This document shows, in pieces, positions 2,899 through 13,697 of a stretch of DNA of 64,000 nt. The notes under the pieces were generated by a model. The model ran no database searches, was not told where the DNA came from, and saw only the letters and a program-made list of their open reading frames with translations. Source of the DNA: Chloroflexota bacterium (GTDB lineage: Bacteria; Chloroflexota; Anaerolineae; UBA1429); NCBI GenBank assembly GCA_012841405.1, contig DUUT01000098.1, positions 1 through 64,000 of the forward strand. The letters run 5' to 3'. Each line of letters starts with the position of its first letter. Positions within the stretch are counted from its first letter, which is position 1. The position numbers were made by a program, and so were the translations under genes.

Positions 2899-3588
2899 TT
2901 GCAGAGAATCGCGACATTCCGTATGTGCTTGCTGGCCCTGATCGTATCGCTCGTGCTCGCCGGGTGCTCGGCCGCTGGCCCTACCGAGGCGCCCACGGCG
3001 CCCCCCGCCCCCGAGAGCCAACCGACGGAGGCGCCCACCATGGAACCGACCCCGACGGGCGAGGAGGCCGCGGAGACGCCCCCCGCGCTGCCACCACCGA
3101 CGGCGGAGGAGGCCCCCGCGTACCCAGCGCCGCCGACCCGCGACCCCGGGCCGTACCCCGAAGCCGCCGAGGCGGAGCCGACGGCGCCGGCCGAGGCCCC
3201 CACCTTTGTCCCCGAGACGCCCGCGCCAGAGTCCCCCCCCGAGGGCTTGGCGACCATCACCGGCACGTTGATGCGTCAAGTGGAAGGGCTGCCGCCCTCC
3301 GCCGTGGCGGATACCTCCCTCTATCTCGCCGCACTGCTCACCGATGAGAGCGGTCAGGTCTCGGGGCTAGCGCGTCTCAATGAGGGCACAGCGCCGCACA
3401 CCCGCACGAACGCCGCCGGCCAGTTCGTCTTTACCGATATCGAGCCGGGGCACTATGCGCTGATCCTCAAGACGCCGCTGACGCTGCAGCCCATCAAGGA
3501 CGCCACCACATCGCGCGAGATCGTGATGGATGTGGCCGCGGGGGACGTCGTCGAGCTGGGCGTCATCGCCATTCCCCTGCCCTACTAG
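2899..3588 (+). CDS. Pro/Glu/Thr-rich lipoprotein with a C-terminal carboxypeptidase-regulatory-like domain
   Basis: 229 residues. TTG at 2899 is preferred because GGAGG lies 7 bases upstream; ATG at 2923 is the alternative. The N-terminus is a lipoprotein signal with lipobox LAGC at about residue 23. It is followed by a ~90-residue Pro/Thr/Glu/Ala linker. The final ~110 residues contain a pattern of the type TxTNAxGxFxFxDIxPGHYAL, typical of prealbumin-like / carboxypeptidase-regulatory folds that serve as binding or spacer modules. The TAG stop is part of the terminal CTAG of the adjacent MITE-like element (3585-3722). Specific function unknown. Confidence 0.7.
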   Translation: MQRIATFRMCLLALIVSLVLAGCSAAGPTEAPTAPPAPESQPTEAPTMEPTPTGEEAAETPPALPPPTAEEAPAYPAPPTRDPGPYPEAAEAEPTAPAEAPTFVPETPAPESPPEGLATITGTLMRQVEGLPPSAVADTSLYLAALLTDESGQVSGLARLNEGTAPHTRTNAAGQFVFTDIEPGHYALILKTPLTLQPIKDATTSREIVMDVAAGDVVELGVIAIPLPY

Positions 3589-3722
3589 GCCGTGTCTCAA
3601 AAACGAACCTTCGTAGAAACGATGTCGCCCCGAGCGTAAGCGAGGGGGCCTTGGCGCCTATCAGCAAGGTTTCTTGCCACGCTCAGAACGACGCTGTGGC
3701 CCTTTTTTCAGACACCATCTAG
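3585..3722 (+). mobile_element. CTAG-bounded MITE-like element, copy A
   Basis: 138 bp starting CTAGGCCGTGTCTC and ending CAGACACCATCTAG. The ends are imperfect inverted repeats (pattern G-x-x-GTGT-x-T-x-x-AAAA after CTAG). An inner inverted pair has GTCGCCCCGAGCG facing the complement of GTCGTTCCGAGCG-like sequence. There is no ORF. The left CTAG contains the TAG stop of the upstream lipoprotein. It lies between convergent genes. Confidence 0.8.
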
Positions 3723-3765
3723 GGCACACCGCCGGGGGTAGCGGCCGGCCCGGTGGCCGTGGGGA

Positions 3766-4908
3766 TTACCGGGGGGCGGGACGGAGCACGGTGCGCAGCA
3801 CGCGCACCAGGGAACGCCCGATGGCCTCGGTTGAGCAGCGCGTGAGGAACATCGCTCGTCCTGCCCGGCCGATCTTGCGCCGCAGCGCGGGATCGCGCCG
3901 CAAGGCGAGGATCGCTCCGGCGACCTCCGCCGGATCCCCGGGGGCGCAGAGCAGCGCGTGGACGTCGGGGGTCAAGAGCTCGCGAGCGGCCGGCGAATCA
4001 CGGGTGACGAGCGGCTTGCCCATGGCGAGGGCGATGTACGCTTTGGTCGGGATCACGCGCGCGGCCTTGTCACTCCGACCAAAGATGCCCAGGCACACGT
4101 CCGCCGCCTCGATGCGCCGGCGCAGGGCCTCCGGCTCGAGCCACTCGGGCCCCCAATCGACAGTGGTCACGCCCAGCGACGCGGCGAGGGCCTCCGCCTG
4201 GGCGCGCTCCTGCCCCCCGCCGATCATCTCGAAGCGGATGTCGCCCTCGGCCTCCAGAAGCTTGGCGGCGCGAATCACGGTGTCGACGCCATGCAGCGGG
4301 ATGAACTTGCCGAAATACAGCACTCGGAACGGCTCCGCCTCGTCCCGCTCCTTCGCCGGCGCCTGGTACACGGCGTCGGCCCCCACCCAGATATGGGCGA
4401 AGGTGGTCGCCGATAGGCCGTAGGCCCTGCGGAACAGCTCGATGTGGGCGCGGGTATCGAGGAGCACGGCATCGGCGAGCCGGCACGTCGTGCGGTCGAT
4501 CCAGCGGCTCAACACGCCGAGCAACGACCGGGACTGCACCAAAGCACGGTCGCCCACGATGGTGTCATAGAGGGAGACGTAGGCGTCGAACACCAGGGGC
4601 GCCCGGCGCAGCCAGGTGAGCACCCGCGCGAGGAAGAGGTCGAGGTGGCCCGGATAGCCGACGATCATGGCATCGTAGCGCCCGATCGCCCGGTGCTGGC
4701 GCACGAGCCGTCCATAGGCGCGCAGCAGCCTGAGCCACAGCCGTGGGTTCAGCGGCCCCTTGCGGGCGTCCGCCACCTTTTCGTCGGTGCTGTTCCACAC
4801 GGTGGCGTGGCACGCGACGACGTCCACACCCTGGGAGCGCAGCGCCGTCTGAGCGACGACGTTCCGCACATAGTCGGCGTCATAGGTGCCAAAGTAGCAC
4901 ACCCTCAC
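3766..4908 (-). CDS. Glycosyltransferase family 4 (GT-B fold)
   Basis: 380 residues starting at a GTG that overlaps the stop of the upstream gene by 4 bases (GTGA). The N-terminal half has the alternating strand pattern of GT4 enzymes. The C-terminal half has the nucleotide-sugar binding region with VLYFGKFIPLHGVDTVIRAA, then EMIGGGQE, then an E-x7-E-like region (IPTKAYIALAMGKPLVT). It would transfer a sugar to a lipid-linked or surface glycan in the cytoplasm. Co-translation with the O-antigen-ligase-like gene supports an exopolysaccharide or surface-glycan pathway. Donor and acceptor cannot be told. Confidence 0.85.
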   Translation of the reverse strand: MRVCYFGTYDADYVRNVVAQTALRSQGVDVVACHATVWNSTDEKVADARKGPLNPRLWLRLLRAYGRLVRQHRAIGRYDAMIVGYPGHLDLFLARVLTWLRRAPLVFDAYVSLYDTIVGDRALVQSRSLLGVLSRWIDRTTCRLADAVLLDTRAHIELFRRAYGLSATTFAHIWVGADAVYQAPAKERDEAEPFRVLYFGKFIPLHGVDTVIRAAKLLEAEGDIRFEMIGGGQERAQAEALAASLGVTTVDWGPEWLEPEALRRRIEAADVCLGIFGRSDKAARVIPTKAYIALAMGKPLVTRDSPAARELLTPDVHALLCAPGDPAEVAGAILALRRDPALRRKIGRAGRAMFLTRCSTEAIGRSLVRVLRTVLRPAPR

Positions 4909-6431
4909 GGCGCGACTCTCTCCTGCAGCGGCGCCACTGCGAGCGCGGCGTCATCTGCCGGGGCATCGTCGGTGGCCCCTTCCGCCGCCAGCCGCATGGT
5001 CACCGCCCCCAACCCCACGACGAGCCACAGCAGTGCCGCGGCATGGGGAAAGTCGAGGTTAAAGAAATAGTGGTCAAAGAAGCCCCCCGCCATGCCACCC
5101 ACCACGGCCAGGCAGCAGCCCAACAGGATCGGCTCGAGCTCGGCGTCACAGAGGCGGCGCCGCCACGTCACCAGGAAGCGCCCCAGGAACCTCCCCAGCG
5201 CCACCAGGAACCCCGCCAGCCCGATGAGGCCCATCTCCTCCGCGATGAGGAGGTAGACGTTCGACACCCCCAGGTAGGTATCGATATCGGGTGTCCCCGC
5301 AAAGCCCACCCCGAACCAGGGGTAGCGGCTGATGAGGGTGATGGCGTCGCGGTACTCACCGAAGCGCATCTGCGTAGCCTGGTCTTGCCCCTGCACCCCC
5401 TCCACGAAGCGCTCGATGAACGGCTCAGCCGCCGGTAGGAGCAGTAGGAGCGCCACCACCAGGGTAAAGATGAACAGCATCCGTCGGTAGCGGAGCAGCC
5501 CCAGGAGCACCAGCGCGGCCGCCATGCCGCCAAAGGCACCGCGTGAATAGGTCAGCACCATGCACAGCACGGTGATCACAAAGGCCACCACCAGCCAGCC
5601 ACGCCGCAGGATCGGCTTGACGGCCAACACTTGGGCGCCAATGAGCGTGCTGATGACGATGAGCATGCCACCGAGCACGTTGGGATCCACCGAGGTAGAG
5701 GTGGCCCGCTGTTGCAGCTCGGGGTTGTCCTCGATGTAGCGCAGCACGTTGTCCGTCGGATAGCGCACCACCCGGAGGGCCGAGAGGAGCTGCGTCTGGA
5801 GCGTATCGGGCAGGACGTAGAGGACCACCCCCACGAGGGCCGCCAGCGCGCCCGCCACGATGAGCACGTTCACAATCAGCTTGAGCTGGGCCCGCGTGCG
5901 CACCACGTTCGTGACCACCACAAAGAACAGCACGCTGAGAATAATCTCGCCAAAGTGACGGATGACATTCGCCGTCAGCGCGCTGTGGGTAAGCCCGGCG
6001 ACGAACGACACCACCGCCAGCCCGAGAAAGGCGAGCACCGGCAAGATAGGAGGCAGCGCCAGGAAGGTATAGTCCTTATCCCCCGCCAACTGGGTCATCC
6101 AGACAAAGAAAACTGCCGCCAGCGCCAGATCAAGAAACGTGGGAGTAAAGCCGATATCAATGGGCAGGGCAGCAAAGGGGAGCAGGCAGATGATACCGAT
6201 CACCACCACGAGGCCAAAGAGGATGCTGCGCAGCATGGCCACGCCCACCAGCATGGCAATGAGCACCGCGCTGCCGTACAGGGGCCCGAGTAGCCCGATG
6301 ACGGCGCCCACGGGCAGGCCCACCGCCAGGCATAACCCCAGCGCCCCCAACCGCCGCACCCAGGGGTTGCGGTGGACGAGGATTTCGGATGCATAGCTCC
6401 AGGAAAGGACCGTCTGCAGTCGCGATACCAT
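4905..6431 (-). CDS. O-antigen ligase / Wzy-type polymerase-like membrane protein
   Basis: 508 residues from ATG at 6431, the last start before the hydrophobic core; an upstream extension would run into the selC region. About twelve transmembrane segments are interrupted by a large soluble loop. A loop with QMRFGEYRDAITLISRYPWFGVGFAG matches the Wzy_C / O-antigen ligase signature (R-x5-A, then P-x-x-G-x-G). Such enzymes join or polymerise lipid-linked glycans outside the membrane. The next gene (GT4) overlaps it by 4 bases. The promoter region is shared divergently with selC. Confidence 0.85.
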   Translation of the reverse strand: MVSRLQTVLSWSYASEILVHRNPWVRRLGALGLCLAVGLPVGAVIGLLGPLYGSAVLIAMLVGVAMLRSILFGLVVVIGIICLLPFAALPIDIGFTPTFLDLALAAVFFVWMTQLAGDKDYTFLALPPILPVLAFLGLAVVSFVAGLTHSALTANVIRHFGEIILSVLFFVVVTNVVRTRAQLKLIVNVLIVAGALAALVGVVLYVLPDTLQTQLLSALRVVRYPTDNVLRYIEDNPELQQRATSTSVDPNVLGGMLIVISTLIGAQVLAVKPILRRGWLVVAFVITVLCMVLTYSRGAFGGMAAALVLLGLLRYRRMLFIFTLVVALLLLLPAAEPFIERFVEGVQGQDQATQMRFGEYRDAITLISRYPWFGVGFAGTPDIDTYLGVSNVYLLIAEEMGLIGLAGFLVALGRFLGRFLVTWRRRLCDAELEPILLGCCLAVVGGMAGGFFDHYFFNLDFPHAAALLWLVVGLGAVTMRLAAEGATDDAPADDAALAVAPLQERVAP

Positions 6432-7632: not shown

Positions 7633-8047
7633 ATGATATGGTGGGCAGGCGATGACCGATAGGACGCGAGCCATGGGATACCTCGTCGCTTCGGCGCTGC
7701 TGTGGAGCGTCGGCGGCGTGCTCATCAAGTGGGTGGAGTGGCATCCCCTGGCCATCGCCGGCGTGCGTAGCGCCATCGCGGCGGCCACCCTCTGGGCGGT
7801 GTTACGCCGCCCCCGCTTTGACTGGTCCGCCGCCCAGATCGGCGGCGCCGTGGCCTATGCCGCGACCGTGCTGCTCTACGTCTCGGCCGTCAAGCTCACC
7901 ACGGCGGCCAACGCCATCCTGCTACAGTACACCGCCCCCATCTATGTGGCCCTCTTTGGCGCCTGGTTCCTCGGCGAGCGCACCACCTGGCTCGATTGGC
8001 TGGCGATCGCCTGCTCCCTCGGCGGCATGGCGCTCTTCTTCCGCGAT

Positions 8048-8072
8048 GGCCCTTTTTCCATACACTCCCTAG
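8048..8072 (+). mobile_element. CTAG element, partial copy F (right end only)
   Basis: GGCCCTTTTTCCATACACTC and the following CCTAG match the right terminus of copies A-C (GGCCCTTTTTCCAAGCACCA then CCTAG in copy B) with only a few changes. No left part is present. The element end coincides with the loss of EamA homology. Confidence 0.55.
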
Positions 8073-8559
8073 ACGCGGACGGCGGCGCTCAGGCCCCACC
8101 CGCATGTTGCATGTTATGGTATCTTGCCTCTGGCGGGTGGCTATGCTATAGTGGGGGCGATGCTTGGCGGACGGATCCTTCGCGCAGGCGTGTCAGGGAG
8201 CCGCGTCGCCCGAGGCACTGTTCGCCCAGCTATCGGCCAGCGTGGCGTAGCAGCATCAGAGCATAGGGCTGTCTCGTCGGGGCCCTCGTACAGTCGCAGC
8301 GTCGCAGAAACGCTGCCGCTCCGGTTGGTACGGCGTCTCATCGGAGCGCCGGTCCCATGTGTGTCGATTCGATAGCGTTCGCAACGCGCGATTGAGCCCC
8401 ATGTCGGTGGGTCACCCGTCACCCGCCGACGCGGCCAGGGGTGTTCCCCTCCCCGAGTGCGTACACTCGTTCGCCCCGACGATCCATAGCCAGGCTCCAC
8501 GTTGCCGGTCACACGCGTGGCATCGACCTCGCATTTACGATCTATCAAGGAGGCATCTC
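8073..8559 (+). other. 487-base leader/intergenic region before the peptide gene
   Basis: No recognisable gene. It holds a good promoter at 8124-8152, an open frame at 8160-8375 (71 codons, Arg/Ser-rich, no known family) whose ATG would be at or next to the predicted transcription start, and a half-site TTGCCGGTCA at 8502-8511. The half-site matches the left arm of the palindrome downstream of the response regulator. The ribosome site AAGGAGG of the peptide gene follows at 8548-8554. Confidence 0.5.
8124..8152 (+). promoter_or_regulatory. Promoter upstream of the ComX/ComQ-like genes
   Basis: TTGCCT, a 17-base spacer, then TGC-TATAGT-type extended -10 (TATAGT 8147-8152). The start would be near 8159, giving a ~400-base leader to the peptide gene, or a leaderless ORF at 8160. 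Confidence 0.55.
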
Positions 8560-8778
8560 ATGAACGCGTTGGCTCGTACTATTCGTGATCTCACCCAGGG
8601 CCGCGAACCTGCCCCCGCTGACCTGAATGCGCTCAGCGTGCAGGAACGGACCGCCCTTGGGGAACTCGAGCGCAAGGATGCCCTCTCGCCGCGGGGCGCC
8701 GCCCGTATGCTCGCAGAGGCCGGCCCGATGCAGAACTGGCTGAGCGCTCCCAAGGCCACCAGGCGGGTCGTCGCCTAG
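8560..8778 (+). CDS. Small peptide precursor, candidate ComX-like pheromone
   Basis: 72 residues from ATG 8560, with AAGGAGG 5-6 bases upstream. It has no signal peptide or membrane helix. An acidic/basic helical body (LTQGREPAPADLNALSVQER, then ALGELERKD) is followed by a tail with a single Trp at position 60 (MQNWLSAPK). It lies 23 bases before a polyprenyl-synthase gene, a multi-TM histidine kinase and a NarL-type regulator, the same set of partners as comX. In ComX the isoprenylated Trp is near the C-terminus; here 12 residues follow it, so further trimming would be needed. The assignment rests on context, size and the single Trp, not on recognisable sequence similarity. An unrelated small regulatory protein remains possible. 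Confidence 0.5.
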   Translation: MNALARTIRDLTQGREPAPADLNALSVQERTALGELERKDALSPRGAARMLAEAGPMQNWLSAPKATRRVVA

Positions 8779-8801
8779 CCAGCGGTCACCGATAGGGACG
8801 G

Positions 8802-9794
8802 ATGCAGGTGGCGATTCCACGACCGATCGGTGATGTGTTTGCACGGCTGCTCGCGGAGGGCCGTGCCGATCCCGCCTACGCCGAGGTCATCCTGTCCCTC
8901 TTGGATACCGCCATGGACGGCGAGACCAAGCACGCCATCACGCTGTTACCCGCTACGACGTGTGCAGCGCACGGGGGGGAGCCCCAGCGGGCGACCCCCG
9001 CGTGCGCGGCCTGGCTTGCCATCCGCGTCGCGGCCAAGACGCTGGACGACGTTGAGGATCGTGACCTACAGCACGACGAGCCCGTCCACGTCAACGCCGC
9101 CACTGGCCTGTTAGCGCTGGCGCCTTTGTGCACCCATGCGCTGATCGATGAGGGTGTGCCTCGCTCCCGGGCCACCCTCATCAGCGCCGAGTTGGCCCGC
9201 GCGATCGTGCGCGCTGGTAGTGGCCAGCATGGCGACCTCGTGGCGCAGCGCGACTCCATCGGCCTCGACCCGGAGGGTTGGTTGGCCGTCGCGGCCGCCA
9301 AGTCGGGCGCGCTTTTTGCCTGGGCCACCTGGGCGGGCGCCGCCATCGCCGGGGCACGGGGGGCGCGCCTGGAGGCCTATCGCCGGTTCGGGGAGAGTCT
9401 CGGCGTCCTCCTACAGATCGCCGACGACTATAACGACATGTGGATCACCCAGCCGAACGGGGGTGTGAGCGTCACGCCCATGCCTGACGCATCGAATCTG
9501 GCCATCGCCTATGCGCGCTTTGTGGCGGACGACGCCACGCGACAGCGCCTCGATCAGGACGCACACGCTGCGCGCCAGGGCGATGCCGACGCCGCGGCGC
9601 GCTTGCGCGCCGCGGTGATGGAATGGGGCGGTCAGACCTTTGTCTTGGCCGCCGGTCGTACCCAGTACCGCCTGGCCATCGAGGGGCTGCGCAGCGCCAA
9701 CCCGCAGCCGACCGTCGCGCATCAGTTGGTAGCCTTACTGGACGGCATCATGCCGGTACTCGCCCACTTTGCCCATGACGATGCCACGCCTTAG
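8802..9794 (+). CDS. Polyprenyl synthase-family protein, ComQ-like
   Basis: 330 residues with both Asp-rich motifs of trans-isoprenyl diphosphate synthases: DDVED at residues 82-86 and DDYND at 208-212. They lie in the all-helical fold, with the Q directly before the second motif (QIADDYND). The central part (ELARAIVRAGSGQHGDLVAQ) corresponds to the region before the KT-like helix. Housekeeping GGPP synthases are usually next to isoprenoid genes; this one is sandwiched between a 72-residue peptide gene and a sensor kinase, as ComQ is. The predicted role is attachment of a prenyl chain to the Trp of the peptide, using FPP or GPP. The start ATG 8802 has AGGGACGG before it. The stop overlaps the kinase start. 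Confidence 0.8.
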   Translation: MQVAIPRPIGDVFARLLAEGRADPAYAEVILSLLDTAMDGETKHAITLLPATTCAAHGGEPQRATPACAAWLAIRVAAKTLDDVEDRDLQHDEPVHVNAATGLLALAPLCTHALIDEGVPRSRATLISAELARAIVRAGSGQHGDLVAQRDSIGLDPEGWLAVAAAKSGALFAWATWAGAAIAGARGARLEAYRRFGESLGVLLQIADDYNDMWITQPNGGVSVTPMPDASNLAIAYARFVADDATRQRLDQDAHAARQGDADAAARLRAAVMEWGGQTFVLAAGRTQYRLAIEGLRSANPQPTVAHQLVALLDGIMPVLAHFAHDDATP

Positions 9795-12060
9795 CCTATT
9801 GCGCGGAATCACGCCCTCTCGCGCGCTCGTCCGCGCGCTGAATATGGCGCTCGTCATCGCCTGTCTGGGCCTCATCGTCTGGGCCGTGACGGTCGTCTTA
9901 CAGCGCCCCTGTCGCGTGCAAGACCTGCAGCTCACCGAGGTCGGCACGCCCTGCCCCACCCTCCTCGAGGACCTGGCGCCGCTGGCCATCGCGCTGGGCA
10001 TCTGTATCATCATCCTCGGCGTTGAGATCGTGGACCGCGGCGCCTCCGTCGCCGAGTTTGTCATCGTGGCCGCCATCCTGGCCACGGGCATTCTCGCCCT
10101 CGCCGGCATCGATACGGCGTTCCGGCTGAACTACTTGTTGCTCGCGTGGGCATCACCCCACTTTTACCATCTCCACATCCGCCTCACCGGGGGCGTATCG
10201 AGCAAGACCGCCCGCCGCATGTTGCACGCCTTTCGCACCCTTGCCGTGCTGGGGTCGATCCCCGTCGTGCTCTGGAGTAGGGAGACGCTGCAAGCAATGG
10301 CCTGGTACGGCGCCTGGCGGGGCGTCGTCCGGCTCACTATTCCCTTGGCCATGGTCGCCGCCGTCATCCTCGCGGTGCGCTATGCCCACCGCGAGCGTTC
10401 GGATGCGGGGCGACGGCCGGTCCGGCTGATCACCTTTGGCAGCCTAGCAGCCATGTTACCCATGGTGCTCCTGTCGTTGGTGCCCGAGACGCTCGGCATC
10501 CCGGTCATGCCCTACGAGCTTACCTTCGTGGGCCTCCTGGTGAGCCCCTTGCTGTACGCCTACGCCATGTTGCCGTACCGCATGACCAAGCTCGACGCCT
10601 TTCTCCGGCGCGCAGCCGTCTATTACCTGCTGGGCACGCTCCTGGCCACCAGCTTTCTGGTGGGCGCGGCCTTTGTGCACGCTCGCTCGGCGTACCTCGC
10701 TGAGCACTGGCCCGTGTTGGGTACCCTTGTCGGTGCCGTGACGCTCACGATCATGCCGCCCCTCGAGCGCCGATTGACGCGTCTGACGGACTGGGTCTGG
10801 TTCGGCCGTTCGGCCAGCTACAGTGGCGTCGTCGGACATCTCGCCGAGTCGCTGTCCACCACTCTGGATCGCGCCACGCTGGAGCGGCTGCTCGTGCGCG
10901 ACCTGGCCACCGCCATGAACCTCTCCTGGAGCACCCTGTACCTGCGGGGGCAGGATGAGACGCTGATGTTGGTGGCGTCGTACGGCACGGCCCCCCGCTT
11001 GCCAGAGCACTTGCCGGCGGATGGTGCGCTCGTTCGCGCCCTCGAGAGCCAGGCCGCACCGGAGAGCCATGAGGATCTCTGCGCCTCCTTGCTCTCCTTG
11101 CGCCCCCGTGCCGCAGAGCGGGAGGTGCTGGCTGTCGACGCGATCGCCCTCTGGCTGCCCCTCGTGTCGAGCGGTGTGCTCCACGGTATCCTGCTGCTCG
11201 GCCCCAAGACGGGCGATGACTTTTACACGCCGCAGGATTACGATATCCTCACCACGCTGGCGCACCAGTCGGGCATCGCGGCGCACAACGTGCACCTCGT
11301 CGATCAGGTGAGTGCCGGTCGCCAGGAGCTCGCCAAGGCGCACCGGCAGCTCCTCGCCGCCGGTGAACAGGAGCGCCGCCGTCTGGCGCAGGAGATCCAC
11401 GACGGCGCGGTGCAGCAGCTGATCGGCATCAGCTATCAGCTGGCCGCACACCATCGCCGCGTGAGCGCCAACCACTCCGATGGGGATACGACGCGAGCAG
11501 AGCTGCTCGAAACGATGGAGGTGACACGCCAGGAGGTTCTCGCTGTGGCCACCGAACTCCGTAGCGTCATTGGAGAGCTCCGCCCTGCGGGCCTCGAGGA
11601 GCTCGGCCTTGCGGCGGCGCTCCACGGCTACGTCTCGCGCCTGTCTCGCGAGTTTGGCGACGACGCGCCCGAGATCGCGATTGACCTGGATGACGGCACC
11701 CTCCCGATTCCTCTGCCGGTGGCGCTGTGCCTGTTTCGCGTTGCCCAGGAGGGCCTGCGCAACGCCATCAAGCATGCCAACGCCTCGCATGTGACGCTGC
11801 GCCTGAGGTCCGAGGGCGGCCAGGTGCGCCTCACCGTGCGTGACGATGGGAGCGGGTTCGAGGTGCCGCAGCGGCTCAGTGAACTCGCCGCACACGACCA
11901 CTATGGGCTGGTAACCATTGCCGAACGCATCGCCCAGGTGGGTGGCGAACTCGCCATCCATTCTGAGCCGGGGGTCGGCTCAGAGATCACCGTCCAAATC
12001 ACAGCCAGCCAGGAGGAAGAGGATGCAGAACGCACCGATCAGGGTTCTCCTCGCCGATGA
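9775..12060 (+). CDS. Multi-TM sensor histidine kinase, ComP-like (GAF, HisKA_3, HATPase)
   Basis: About 761 residues. ATG 9775 is chosen (9781 and TTG 9769 are alternatives); it overlaps the polyprenyl synthase by 20 bases. Residues ~20-330 hold about eight to nine membrane helices. A GAF-like domain follows at ~365-515. The HisKA_3 dimerisation box is RRRLAQEIHDGAVQQL with phospho-acceptor His ~542. HATPase follows with N box NAIKHAN, G1 DDGSGF and G2 GLVTIAERI. A kinase with many membrane segments and a NarL partner matches ComP and NarX/DegS-class kinases. The expected signal is the neighbouring modified peptide, sensed from outside or in the membrane. It is co-translated with the response regulator (38-base overlap). 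Confidence 0.88.
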   Translation: MTMPRLSLLRGITPSRALVRALNMALVIACLGLIVWAVTVVLQRPCRVQDLQLTEVGTPCPTLLEDLAPLAIALGICIIILGVEIVDRGASVAEFVIVAAILATGILALAGIDTAFRLNYLLLAWASPHFYHLHIRLTGGVSSKTARRMLHAFRTLAVLGSIPVVLWSRETLQAMAWYGAWRGVVRLTIPLAMVAAVILAVRYAHRERSDAGRRPVRLITFGSLAAMLPMVLLSLVPETLGIPVMPYELTFVGLLVSPLLYAYAMLPYRMTKLDAFLRRAAVYYLLGTLLATSFLVGAAFVHARSAYLAEHWPVLGTLVGAVTLTIMPPLERRLTRLTDWVWFGRSASYSGVVGHLAESLSTTLDRATLERLLVRDLATAMNLSWSTLYLRGQDETLMLVASYGTAPRLPEHLPADGALVRALESQAAPESHEDLCASLLSLRPRAAEREVLAVDAIALWLPLVSSGVLHGILLLGPKTGDDFYTPQDYDILTTLAHQSGIAAHNVHLVDQVSAGRQELAKAHRQLLAAGEQERRRLAQEIHDGAVQQLIGISYQLAAHHRRVSANHSDGDTTRAELLETMEVTRQEVLAVATELRSVIGELRPAGLEELGLAAALHGYVSRLSREFGDDAPEIAIDLDDGTLPIPLPVALCLFRVAQEGLRNAIKHANASHVTLRLRSEGGQVRLTVRDDGSGFEVPQRLSELAAHDHYGLVTIAERIAQVGGELAIHSEPGVGSEITVQITASQEEEDAERTDQGSPRR

Positions 12061-12697
12061 TCACCCGTTGGTGCGGGCCGGCATCCGGGCCACACTGTGC
12101 AACGAGCCGGACATCATCGTCGTGGGTGAGGCCGCCGATGGCCACGAGGCGCGCTTGCGGACCGAAGAGCTCGGGCCCGATGTTCTACTCCTCGACCTGA
12201 ACATGCCCGGTCCCTCTGCCATCGATACCGTGACCTACCTGCGGCGCCGTTGTCCCCACGTCAAGGTAGTGATCCTCACCGCCTTTGACGACGACGCCTA
12301 CGTGCGGGGCCTCGTCAAGGCTGGCGTGGCGGGGTACATCCTCAAGGACGAGGTGCCAGAGGCGGTGGCCCGTGCGCTCCATGCCGTGGTAGAGGGGGGC
12401 ACCTGGTTCAGCCGCCCCCTCATGCAGCGGCTGATCACCCCCTCCACGGCCGATGATGGCGCTGACAGTGCAGCAGACGCCTACGAGCCCCCGCTGACGG
12501 GGCGTGAGGTGCGCATCCTGCAGCTCCTCGTGGAGGGGCTCACCGATCGCGAGATCGGTCAGGAGCTGAGCCTGGCCGAGCGCACCGTGCGCTACTGCCT
12601 GCGCAACATCTATGATAAGCTCCACGTCGCCAACCGCACCGAAGCCGCTTACCGCGCCTCACAGATCAACTTTGGCTCGTCCCGCGTGACCGACTAG
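12023..12697 (+). CDS. NarL/LuxR-family response regulator, ComA-like
   Basis: 224 residues from ATG 12023, preceded by AGGAGGAAGAGG inside the end of the kinase gene. The receiver domain has the DD pair at the start (LLADDHPLVRAG), phospho-acceptor Asp ~58 (LLLDLNMPG), the Thr switch (ILTAF) and Lys (YILKDE). The C-terminal LuxR-type helix-turn-helix is clear (LTGREVRILQLLVEGLTDRE, then IG and ERTVRYCLRNIYDKL). It is the output of the upstream kinase. A perfect 16-bp palindrome with the architecture of a ComA box lies 24 bases after its stop, directly before a promoter, and is its most likely DNA target. Confidence 0.93.
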   Translation: MQNAPIRVLLADDHPLVRAGIRATLCNEPDIIVVGEAADGHEARLRTEELGPDVLLLDLNMPGPSAIDTVTYLRRRCPHVKVVILTAFDDDAYVRGLVKAGVAGYILKDEVPEAVARALHAVVEGGTWFSRPLMQRLITPSTADDGADSAADAYEPPLTGREVRILQLLVEGLTDREIGQELSLAERTVRYCLRNIYDKLHVANRTEAAYRASQINFGSSRVTD

Positions 12698-12720
12698 GTA
12701 CGCACCACACCGCCGGCGGA

Positions 12721-12736
12721 TTGCCGGATCCGGCAA
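12721..12736 (+). promoter_or_regulatory. ComA-box-like operator, site 1 (perfect palindrome)
   Basis: TTGCCGGATCCGGCAA is a 16-bp perfect palindrome of the form TTGCCG-N4-CGGCAA. The Bacillus ComA recognition element is TTGCGG-N4-CCGCAA, so arm length, spacing and four of six arm positions are alike in kind. It lies 22 bp upstream of a second copy and 22 bases before the -35. Confidence 0.7.
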
Positions 12737-12742
12737 CAAAGT

Positions 12743-12758
12743 TTGCCGGATCCGACGT
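12743..12758 (+). promoter_or_regulatory. ComA-box-like operator, site 2 (imperfect)
   Basis: TTGCCGGATCCGACGT repeats site 1 exactly for 12 bases and then diverges in the right arm. The 22-bp phase places both sites on about the same DNA face. It abuts the -35 at 12758. Confidence 0.6.
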
Positions 12759-12786
12759 TACGCGCGGCGCCACTTTCTACTACAAT
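12758..12786 (+). promoter_or_regulatory. Promoter behind the ComA-box-like sites
   Basis: TTACGC, a 17-base spacer, then TACAAT. The weak -35 next to two operator copies is what an activator-dependent promoter looks like. Confidence 0.6.
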
Positions 12787-12792
12787 GGTCTG

Positions 12793-12943
12793 TGGGAGGG
12801 CGATGTGCGGTCTTCGTGACGTCGGCAACCCCCAGTGCTGACATGGAACGCTCGGCGACGAGAGCGATCTGCCACGGTATCGTAACACCCTCCCCCCCCT
12901 TGTACGCCACAGGGGCCGGAACGCTGTTCCGGCCCCTTTCTCT
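12793..12943 (+). ncRNA. Short terminated transcript, candidate regulatory RNA or micro-peptide mRNA
   Basis: The promoter at 12758-12786 and the terminator at 12911-12943 define a transcript of about 150 bases with no large ORF. It could encode a 12-residue peptide (ATG 12803, MCGLRDVGNPQC, preceded by GGGAGGG but only 2 bases away), stopping at 12841 one base before another ATG. Alternatively it acts as RNA. No known RNA family is recognised. Confidence 0.4.
12911..12943 (+). terminator. Rho-independent terminator of the short transcript
   Basis: A perfect 12-bp stem (AGGGGCCGGAAC / GTTCCGGCCCCT) with a 3-base loop is followed by TTCTCTT. The convergent creatininase gene ends at 12975. Confidence 0.8.
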
Positions 12944-12974
12944 TGCCCTCCCGGCACCGTAGGCGCCGGCGCCA

Positions 12975-13697
12975 TCACGTGCCGATCGTCTCGATGCCCA
13001 CCACCCGACGCCCCGGCTGCGCCGCCATCTCCTGCAGCGAGGCCATCAGCGCCTCCACACCAGCCTCGAGGATGCGCCGTCCCTTCTCGGCCGTCCCCAA
13101 GGAGGGGTCATCGCTGATATCCGTCACCAGCGTGCGACACGCCATGCGCACCAGGTGGGGCGCGGTGAACAGCACCGCCGAGGTCTCGGCCTCGCCCGCA
13201 TGCCCGATGGTGCGACAGGGCCCCTCGGTGATGGCGTCGATCTTGTCCTGCACCAGATCGAACCAGCAATAGGCGTTCACCTGCTGGCCGAGCTCGTGCC
13301 GGAGCTCGAGGGCCGCGGCGCGCACCGTGTCGCCATTGCCGCCATGCCCGCTGAGGATGAGGATGCGCTCAAAGCCGTGTGCGGCGACGCATCGGCAGAC
13401 CTCCTTGAGCACACGAACCGTCGTCTCGACGGACAGGGTGATCGTCCCCGGGTGGATCATGTGGTGCGGTGAGACCCCAAAGGGGATCGTCGGCGTCACC
13501 AGCACGGGGATGTCGAGGCGGCGCGCCGCCTCGCGCGACACGTACTCCACGGTGCGCTGATCCGTATCCTCCGGTAGGTGCAGGCCGTGCTGCTCGGTGG
13601 AGGCGATGGGCACGATGACCACCGTGTTGCGAGCGGCCCACTCGGGGAACTCGCCGCGGGTGTGGTTGGCCCACAGAATCTCTTCGACGGGCTTCAT
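12975..13697 (-). CDS. Creatininase-family amidohydrolase
   Basis: 240 residues from ATG 13697, preceded by GGGGGG; the upstream in-frame extension runs into the CTAG element. Metal ligands of the creatininase/MftE family are present: the E of STEQHGLHLPEDTD with its His and Asp, the H of SGHGGNGD, and a later Glu (GHAGEAETSA). The family hydrolyses creatinine, formamides and related C-N bonds in the cytoplasm. It is the last gene of a four-gene catabolic operon; substrate not determinable. Confidence 0.85.
   Translation of the reverse strand: MKPVEEILWANHTRGEFPEWAARNTVVIVPIASTEQHGLHLPEDTDQRTVEYVSREAARRLDIPVLVTPTIPFGVSPHHMIHPGTITLSVETTVRVLKEVCRCVAAHGFERILILSGHGGNGDTVRAAALELRHELGQQVNAYCWFDLVQDKIDAITEGPCRTIGHAGEAETSAVLFTAPHLVRMACRTLVTDISDDPSLGTAEKGRRILEAGVEALMASLQEMAAQPGRRVVGIETIGT

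Follow-up and report, generated by a model that had tools for sequence, protein, structure and literature searches.

A four-gene operon of an Anaerolineae bacterium (phylum Chloroflexota) very likely encodes a self-contained quorum-sensing system, in which a peptide prenylated on tryptophan would be sensed by the kinase of its producer (probability about 0.85). The operon lies in a stretch of 64,000 nucleotides (positions 1 to 64,000 of contig DUUT01000098.1, assembly GCA_012841405.1), hereafter called the window. We show which genes are present and in what order, that both the unit and the Trp are conserved, that the enzyme has lost IPP-binding residues, that the kinase family is homologous to ComP, and that an operator-like element is shared. 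Prenylation, processing, export, ligand binding and operator occupancy are inferred.

Genes for a prenyltransferase (Q), a small precursor (X), a membrane kinase (P) and a NarL-type regulator (A) are adjacent on one strand, which meets the gene-set criterion of ComQXPA. The features are as follows (window coordinates).

8548-8553, + strand: ribosome-binding site AGGAGG of the peptide gene, from the sequence; a 6-base match in the rule-based scan
8560-8778, + strand: precursor peptide gene, 72 aa, ATG start, single Trp60 (codon 8737-8739)
Residues 52-64 of the precursor: presumed core unit around Trp60, AEAGPMQNWLSAP, from its likeness to the repeat of locus L102
8802-9794, + strand: ComQ-like prenyltransferase of the trans-isoprenyl-diphosphate-synthase (trans-IDS) type, 330 aa
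9775-12060, + strand: ComP-type membrane sensor kinase, 761 aa, ATG start at 9775
12023-12697, + strand: NarL/LuxR-type response regulator, 224 aa, REC (Asp58) and GerE
12721-12758, + strand: candidate operator of the regulator, two palindromes with a 22-base period, TTGCCGGATCCGGCAA and a second copy TTGCCGGATCCGACGT; element common to L102
12781-12786, + strand: -10-like hexamer TACAAT, 38 bases past the start of the second palindrome
12911-12937, + strand: terminator-like hairpin between the operon and a convergent creatininase gene

The synthase and kinase genes overlap by 20 bases and the kinase and regulator genes by 38. A sequence-only reading had proposed these four genes, their coordinates, overlaps and motifs, and all held on re-examination. 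It had described the kinase as having about eight to nine helices with HisKA_3 and HATPase, which also held (about eight were found), with the GAF domain missing from its list. No Rfam family matched in 8250-13000, and the 300 bases before the peptide gene contained neither a conserved inverted repeat nor a promoter-like site. The window operon contains no exporter or protease gene and no immunity, transport or lanthionine-type gene.

The arrangement recurs widely. A contig search with the window synthase alone found no relatives. In 396 genomes of the class, a profile built from eight such synthases separated a group with high scores (roughly >185 bits) from the ordinary synthases, except that one ordinary gene (in genome G056, 189 bits) fell inside the range. 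In most high scorers the next gene downstream encoded a kinase that shares the membrane domain, and a regulator of matching type was usually present too. The downstream kinase is independent evidence because the search relied on the synthase only. The X-Q-P order was repeated in about 30 related Anaerolineae operons across many families, and at two more loci in other Chloroflexota classes (L149 and L150). X-Q-P loci were also present in MAGs labelled Deltaproteobacteria and Terriglobia (L128 and L132), for which the binning is unverified. The X-Q-P-A order noted for the window earlier is the rule in the group. Most loci derive from metagenome assemblies, and the nearest relatives with a name are MAGs of Anaerolineae and other Chloroflexota. 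Many loci consist of the four genes and nothing else, and one genome (G035) carries several such systems. At some loci, genes for membrane proteins resembling transporters or proteases lie nearby, among them a CPBP protease gene in L048 and L114.

In the window's own family, none of the 14 other members sampled had more than one synthase. Of the window-type loci in other families, L087 lies near an integrase, L092 near a transposase and L102 near an apparent recombinase remnant. The distribution is therefore patchy and was probably spread by transfer.

Presence of the peptide gene was scored with a fixed rule (a ribosome-site core of ≥5 bases at 3-13 bases, a start codon, <150 codons, and an end near the synthase start). 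Of 32 operon loci, 27 had a small ORF upstream of the synthase by this rule, and 25 of these ORFs carried Trp among their final 20 residues. The corresponding numbers at ordinary synthase loci were 4 of 30 and 3 of 30. A Trp peptide gene was added by eye at L088, L090, L106 and L111; in L087 the peptide gene is frameshifted in the assembly and the Trp is present in the shifted frame. Synthase-kinase pairs lacking the small gene would have refuted the sequence-only reading; the gene was found at 25 of 32 loci by rule and 30 of 32 on inspection, so the reading was not refuted. No peptide was found at L035 by rule or inspection, and L103 had a small ORF but no Trp. An orphan synthase in genome G044 was a further exception.

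A non-conserved Trp, the other outcome that would have counted against that reading, was not borne out. The Trp is the one invariant tail residue and is present in every core. Among 26 single-core peptides, all 26 had Trp in the last 20 residues, versus a mean of 9.7 in shuffles. The rule-based count is the fair figure, since some peptides in the shuffle test were picked by eye. Six precursors carried tandem Trp-containing cores: four in L085, three in L086, at least 11 in L088, five in L090, three in L102 and four in L128. Examples of cores are PAGGPNGPWGWQFMSE, EGPFPGWQGMELA and, in the three tandem units of L102, GPQEAWAVSPMAxA. The L102 unit resembles the tail of the window precursor, so that AEAGPMQNWLSAP is the likely window core. 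That a unit with a fixed Trp should be repeated in this way would have no easy explanation if the unit were not the product.

In the window precursor, Trp60 of 72 is the only Trp and is followed by twelve residues; the tryptic peptide spanning it is MLAEAGPMQNWLSAPK (residues 50-65). Both other forward frames of the gene are interrupted by stops, and homologues are similarly placed before synthases elsewhere, which together indicate that the small ORF is more than chance. The window peptide is homologous to those of L092, L100, L102, L122 and L132, and the alignment of these six has the pattern MN.LA..V...(L)...E..AL...(S)P......GP...W. The distance of Trp60 from the C-terminus had been taken as an anomaly needing different processing or marking a new type of peptide. 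This part failed: the Trp lies between -2 and -19 from the precursor end across relatives, and the window position, about 13 from the end, is ordinary among them.

The comparison of the precursor with ComX also had to be corrected. In a scan that scored the Anoxybacillus ComX at 72 bits, the ComX family PF05952 gave no match to the window precursor at E up to 1, which therefore does not count as a ComX. Neither ComX nor NHLP models matched it directly, and it is linked through relatives alone. Of these, the precursor of L083 scores above the curated threshold of the NHLP-clan RiPP leader model NF038399 (46.1 versus 40 bits); further relatives match, but under the cut-off. The window leader is weakly linked by a leader profile via L122 and L092 (7.0 bits). 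As to direct homology of the leaders to ComX, the leader profile fails to separate ComX from shuffles. The relatives' leaders thus probably belong to the NHLP RiPP clan, as PalX of Paenibacillus does, with L083 alone above the cut-off. Judged by its relatives, the window precursor is inferred to be of the NHLP RiPP type, and here it is probably nearer to PalX than to ComX.

The enzyme scored 41 bits against PF00348 (cut-off 27), and has a first Asp-rich motif (FARM, DDVED, 82-86) and a second (SARM, DDYND, 208-212). In chain-lengthening synthases, GKRxRP and an arginine pair after the first Asp-rich motif bind IPP. An alignment of operon enzymes, 25 ordinary synthases and four real ComQ proteins showed that only the ordinary synthases retain GKRxRP and the RR after the FARM; both are missing from the operon enzymes and from the four ComQ. 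The first motif (DDxxD) was retained in nearly all operon and ComQ enzymes. The second is intact in the window enzyme and degenerate in many relatives, so that the pseudo-SARM criterion of ComQ is not met. We do not regard the intact motif as an objection, because the second motif of trans-IDS-like peptide prenyltransferases reportedly recognises Trp rather than IPP (PMC13290415), and PalQ retains it intact (PMC10853753).

In the tree, operon enzymes were split from ordinary ones with support 100/100. The window enzyme grouped with those of L087, L092, L100 and L102 (100/99), whose peptides resemble the window peptide. ComQ formed its own clade, and an exclusive common ancestor with the operon enzymes was unresolved there; the operon profile gave ComQ proteins higher scores than the ordinary-synthase profile did. 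An AlphaFold2 model of the window enzyme was all-helical (pLDDT 89.5, pTM 0.90). In a fold search against solved structures, synthases and the Trp farnesyltransferase Ord1 matched it about equally, with Ord1 among the best, so the fold alone is not decisive. Identity with the cell's general GGPP synthase would also have refuted the sequence-only reading. It is excluded by the separate ordinary, housekeeping gene on contig C4 of the same genome (227 bits versus 41 for the operon enzyme), the separate clade and the loss of IPP-binding motifs. An encapsulin-cargo assignment (NF041169) was likewise rejected: the score was 65 bits, far under the cut-off of 450, and the synthase groups with the operon enzymes.

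The window kinase has about eight hydrophobic transmembrane helices, a GAF domain, HisKA_3 (His542) and HATPase_c. A PDZ domain is absent from it and its three nearest relatives, which have instead a short loop with two conserved Cys. The N-termini of the kinase family are homologous to ComP across the sensor region, through PDZ and the membrane domain (hhalign 99.1%, 313 columns; reversed ComP control 0.3%). This homology is shown for the family. The four PDZ-less kinases alone matched ComP weakly (29%), but they matched the rest of the kinase family at 99.94%.

The candidate operator sits right after the regulator gene. L102, from another family, has three palindrome copies with a 22-base period; they stand 39 bases before TATCAT and precede the L102 peptide gene by about 0.9 kb. 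The L102 regulator and that of the window operon have almost the same recognition helix (AERTVRYCLRNIYDKL and AERTVRYHLRGIFGKL). In the window genome the composite element occurs exactly twice, in the window and on contig C188, with none in a reversed control. The C188 copy (5682-5717) lies ahead of TACCGT at similar spacing, upstream of another NarL-type regulator gene. The window site, TTGCCG-GATC-CGGCAA, is like the ComA box, TTGCGG-N4-CCGCAA, in being a hexamer pair with a 4-base spacer (PMC4797271). The tandem palindrome is probably the regulator's operator, an inference from sequence without occupancy data. Four other copies of the palindrome with two mismatches were not counted as targets because they lack a 22-base partner and lie mostly within long open frames. 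Downstream of the window copy there is only a short stretch before the hairpin at 12911-12937.

The proposed mechanism is as follows. Once the 72-aa precursor is translated, Q would bind an allylic diphosphate via its first Asp-rich motif and move the prenyl group (C10-C20) onto Trp60 instead of lengthening the diphosphate. The leader and short tail would be removed by proteases encoded outside the operon, and the lipopeptide would leave the cell. At sufficient concentration it would bind the multi-helix membrane domain of P, which would phosphorylate A on Asp58. A dimer of A would then bind the tandem 6-4-6 palindromes, which lie beside the operon some 40 bases before the -10 element, and would also bind at a second promoter that precedes another regulator gene.

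The operon was compared with known systems, using for ComQXPA the copies of Anoxybacillus (L116), Priestia (L118), B. velezensis (L115) and Lysinibacillus (L117). Like ComQXPA, it has a four-gene unit, a small Trp-bearing precursor, a NarL-type regulator whose operator is probably a 6-4-6 inverted repeat, a trans-IDS-like prenyltransferase that keeps the FARM without the IPP-binding motifs, and a multi-helix HisKA_3 kinase of a family homologous to ComP over the sensor region. It differs in gene order (X-Q-P-A versus Q-X-P-A), in a precursor outside PF05952, in a Trp 13 from the end rather than within the last 5-10 residues, in a kinase subgroup with a two-Cys loop and GAF and without PDZ, in the intact second Asp-rich motif, in the multicore precursors of its relatives, and in phylum.

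PalPXQ of Paenibacillus alvei (PMC10853753) likewise keeps together a histidine kinase, a precursor (there of NHLP type) and a trans-IDS-like Trp prenyltransferase. Its SARM is intact, as in the window enzyme. Among the window's relatives, the leaders are probably of the NHLP clan, and several precursors have Trp as the penultimate residue. However, PalQ requires Trp at the very C-terminus (PMC10853753), whereas the window Trp is internal, and the window operon includes a response regulator. The relevant sections of PMC10853753 show no signalling role for PalX. Ord1 (PDB 9v4g-9v4j; PMC13290415) shares the all-alpha trans-IDS-like fold, a Gln just before the second Asp-rich motif and Trp as acceptor, but it farnesylates free Trp, has about 22% identity to the window enzyme in structural alignment, and is not known to lie within a signalling operon. 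Ordinary polyprenyl diphosphate synthases, such as the C4 gene (L001), share the superfamily, the FARM and GQxxD; they differ in keeping GKRxRP and RRG/RRH for IPP, missing in the operon enzymes, and in forming a separate group in the tree.

The window system therefore belongs formally to neither family. Four features set it apart from ComQXPA (a precursor outside PF05952, the place of the Trp in the tail, the gene order and the second Asp-rich motif), and it lacks the C-terminal Trp of PalX. It very likely works like both, with prenylation inferred. The earlier proposal of a ComQXPA-like logic is in this sense well supported, but identity with Bacillus ComQXPA is not.

Three alternative explanations can be considered. 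One is that the prenylated secreted peptide is mainly an antimicrobial or interspecies lipopeptide, with the kinase and regulator serving immunity or autoinduction, as in lantibiotic producers. Its support comes from NHLP leaders and multicore precursors, both characteristic of RiPP natural products, from membrane proteins of transporter or protease type encoded beside some loci (the CPBP protease of L048/L114), and from the several parallel systems of G035. Against this, the window operon lacks immunity, transport or lanthionine-type genes, a dedicated ComP-type receptor is present at almost every locus, and many loci are four genes alone. We consider this explanation unlikely.

Less likely still is that the enzyme's product is a small prenyl compound, or free Trp or indole bearing a prenyl group, as with Ord1, and that the kinase senses this product while the small gene is accessory. 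Fold and profile similarity to Ord1 and the intact SARM favour this. Against it, Trp keeps its place near the C-terminus although the peptides vary otherwise, every core of the multicore precursors has one, and the small gene accompanies the synthase nearly always. A chance neighbourhood of a degenerate diphosphate synthase, an unrelated two-component system and a spurious small ORF, for which the weak PF00348 match and the lack of a database match for the small ORF could be cited, is all but excluded by conservation: the genes overlap, the peptides are homologous, and the arrangement recurs in about 30 loci of diverse families and is missing at ordinary synthase loci.

The quorum-sensing reading remains preferred. 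A 2014 census, with data up to 2013, found no ComQXPA outside Firmicutes (PMC4008528), and in Chloroflexi a survey of 2022 listed the kinase-regulator pair alone (PMC8895600). We found no prenyl-Trp system of this kind in Chloroflexota in the open-access literature searched and, to our knowledge, no prenylated-Trp pheromone was known before outside Firmicutes (Bacillus and relatives). A bolder reading, which we consider probable, is an unreported, phylum-level prenyl-Trp signalling family of Chloroflexota (mostly Anaerolineae). It would have NHLP-derived precursors, multicore precursors releasing many prenylated signals per chain, a PDZ-less receptor subtype and a conserved operator of 22-base period, with a diversity at least equal to that of all known Firmicutes systems.

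The dozens of natural precursor-enzyme-receptor sets would allow study of how a trans-isoprenyl synthase turns into a peptide prenyltransferase and of receptor/signal co-variation. With the multicore precursors, nature supplies a test of Trp specificity, and sequence searches for the operator may find the controlled genes. If the inferred function is true, Chloroflexota would possess their own density-sensing language.

A second copy of the operator-promoter element, an inferred candidate operator with tandem palindromes and a -10-like sequence, was found in the window's own genome (locus L172, G000 contig C188), together with a NarL-type regulator gene downstream:

3183-3250, second copy of the operator-promoter element
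3384-4058, NarL-type regulator gene

One in-frame TGA separates the receiver from the DNA-binding domain in this gene. The element and the gene on C188 are likely a target of the window operon's regulator.

On the operon side, the operator-promoter apparently drives only a short stretch (window 12787-12937), which has a strong hairpin at its end. When a gene and an Rfam family were looked for in this stretch, neither was found except for a 12-codon ORF. The stretch might encode a small RNA. At the other flank, 5′ of the operon, lies an EamA/DMT-type transporter gene (window 7652-8266) that appears truncated at the 3′ end; insertion of the operon next to a decayed gene is possible.

The precursor of L088 (G204 contig C78) has at least 11 tandem Trp-containing cores (EGPFPGWQGMELA), in an array broken by an assembly N run. 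In L048/L114 (G027 contig C3), where the peptide tail is GSVVGWGRG, a CPBP/Rce1-like membrane protease gene lies immediately 5′ of the peptide gene, and this protease is a candidate for precursor processing.

A solitary synthase similar in type to the operon enzymes, with IPP-binding motifs absent, was seen on the cyanobacterial Acaryochloris marina plasmid pREC3 (L119, 4833-5780); a fatty acyl-AMP ligase gene and genes for hypothetical proteins lie nearby.

L113 (G345 contig C71), L111 and L103 form one divergent subgroup. L113 has a tandem pair of paralogous small genes (..GFGRL.. and ..GFGKL..) 5′ of the synthase. The small ORF of L103 is without Trp; therefore, a different residue is perhaps modified there. 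In L109 (G214 contig C57), an RBS-led small ORF (4602-4808) with a C-terminal CGRCG lies upstream of an operon-type synthase that is without a kinase. This ORF possibly encodes a Cys-modified relative.
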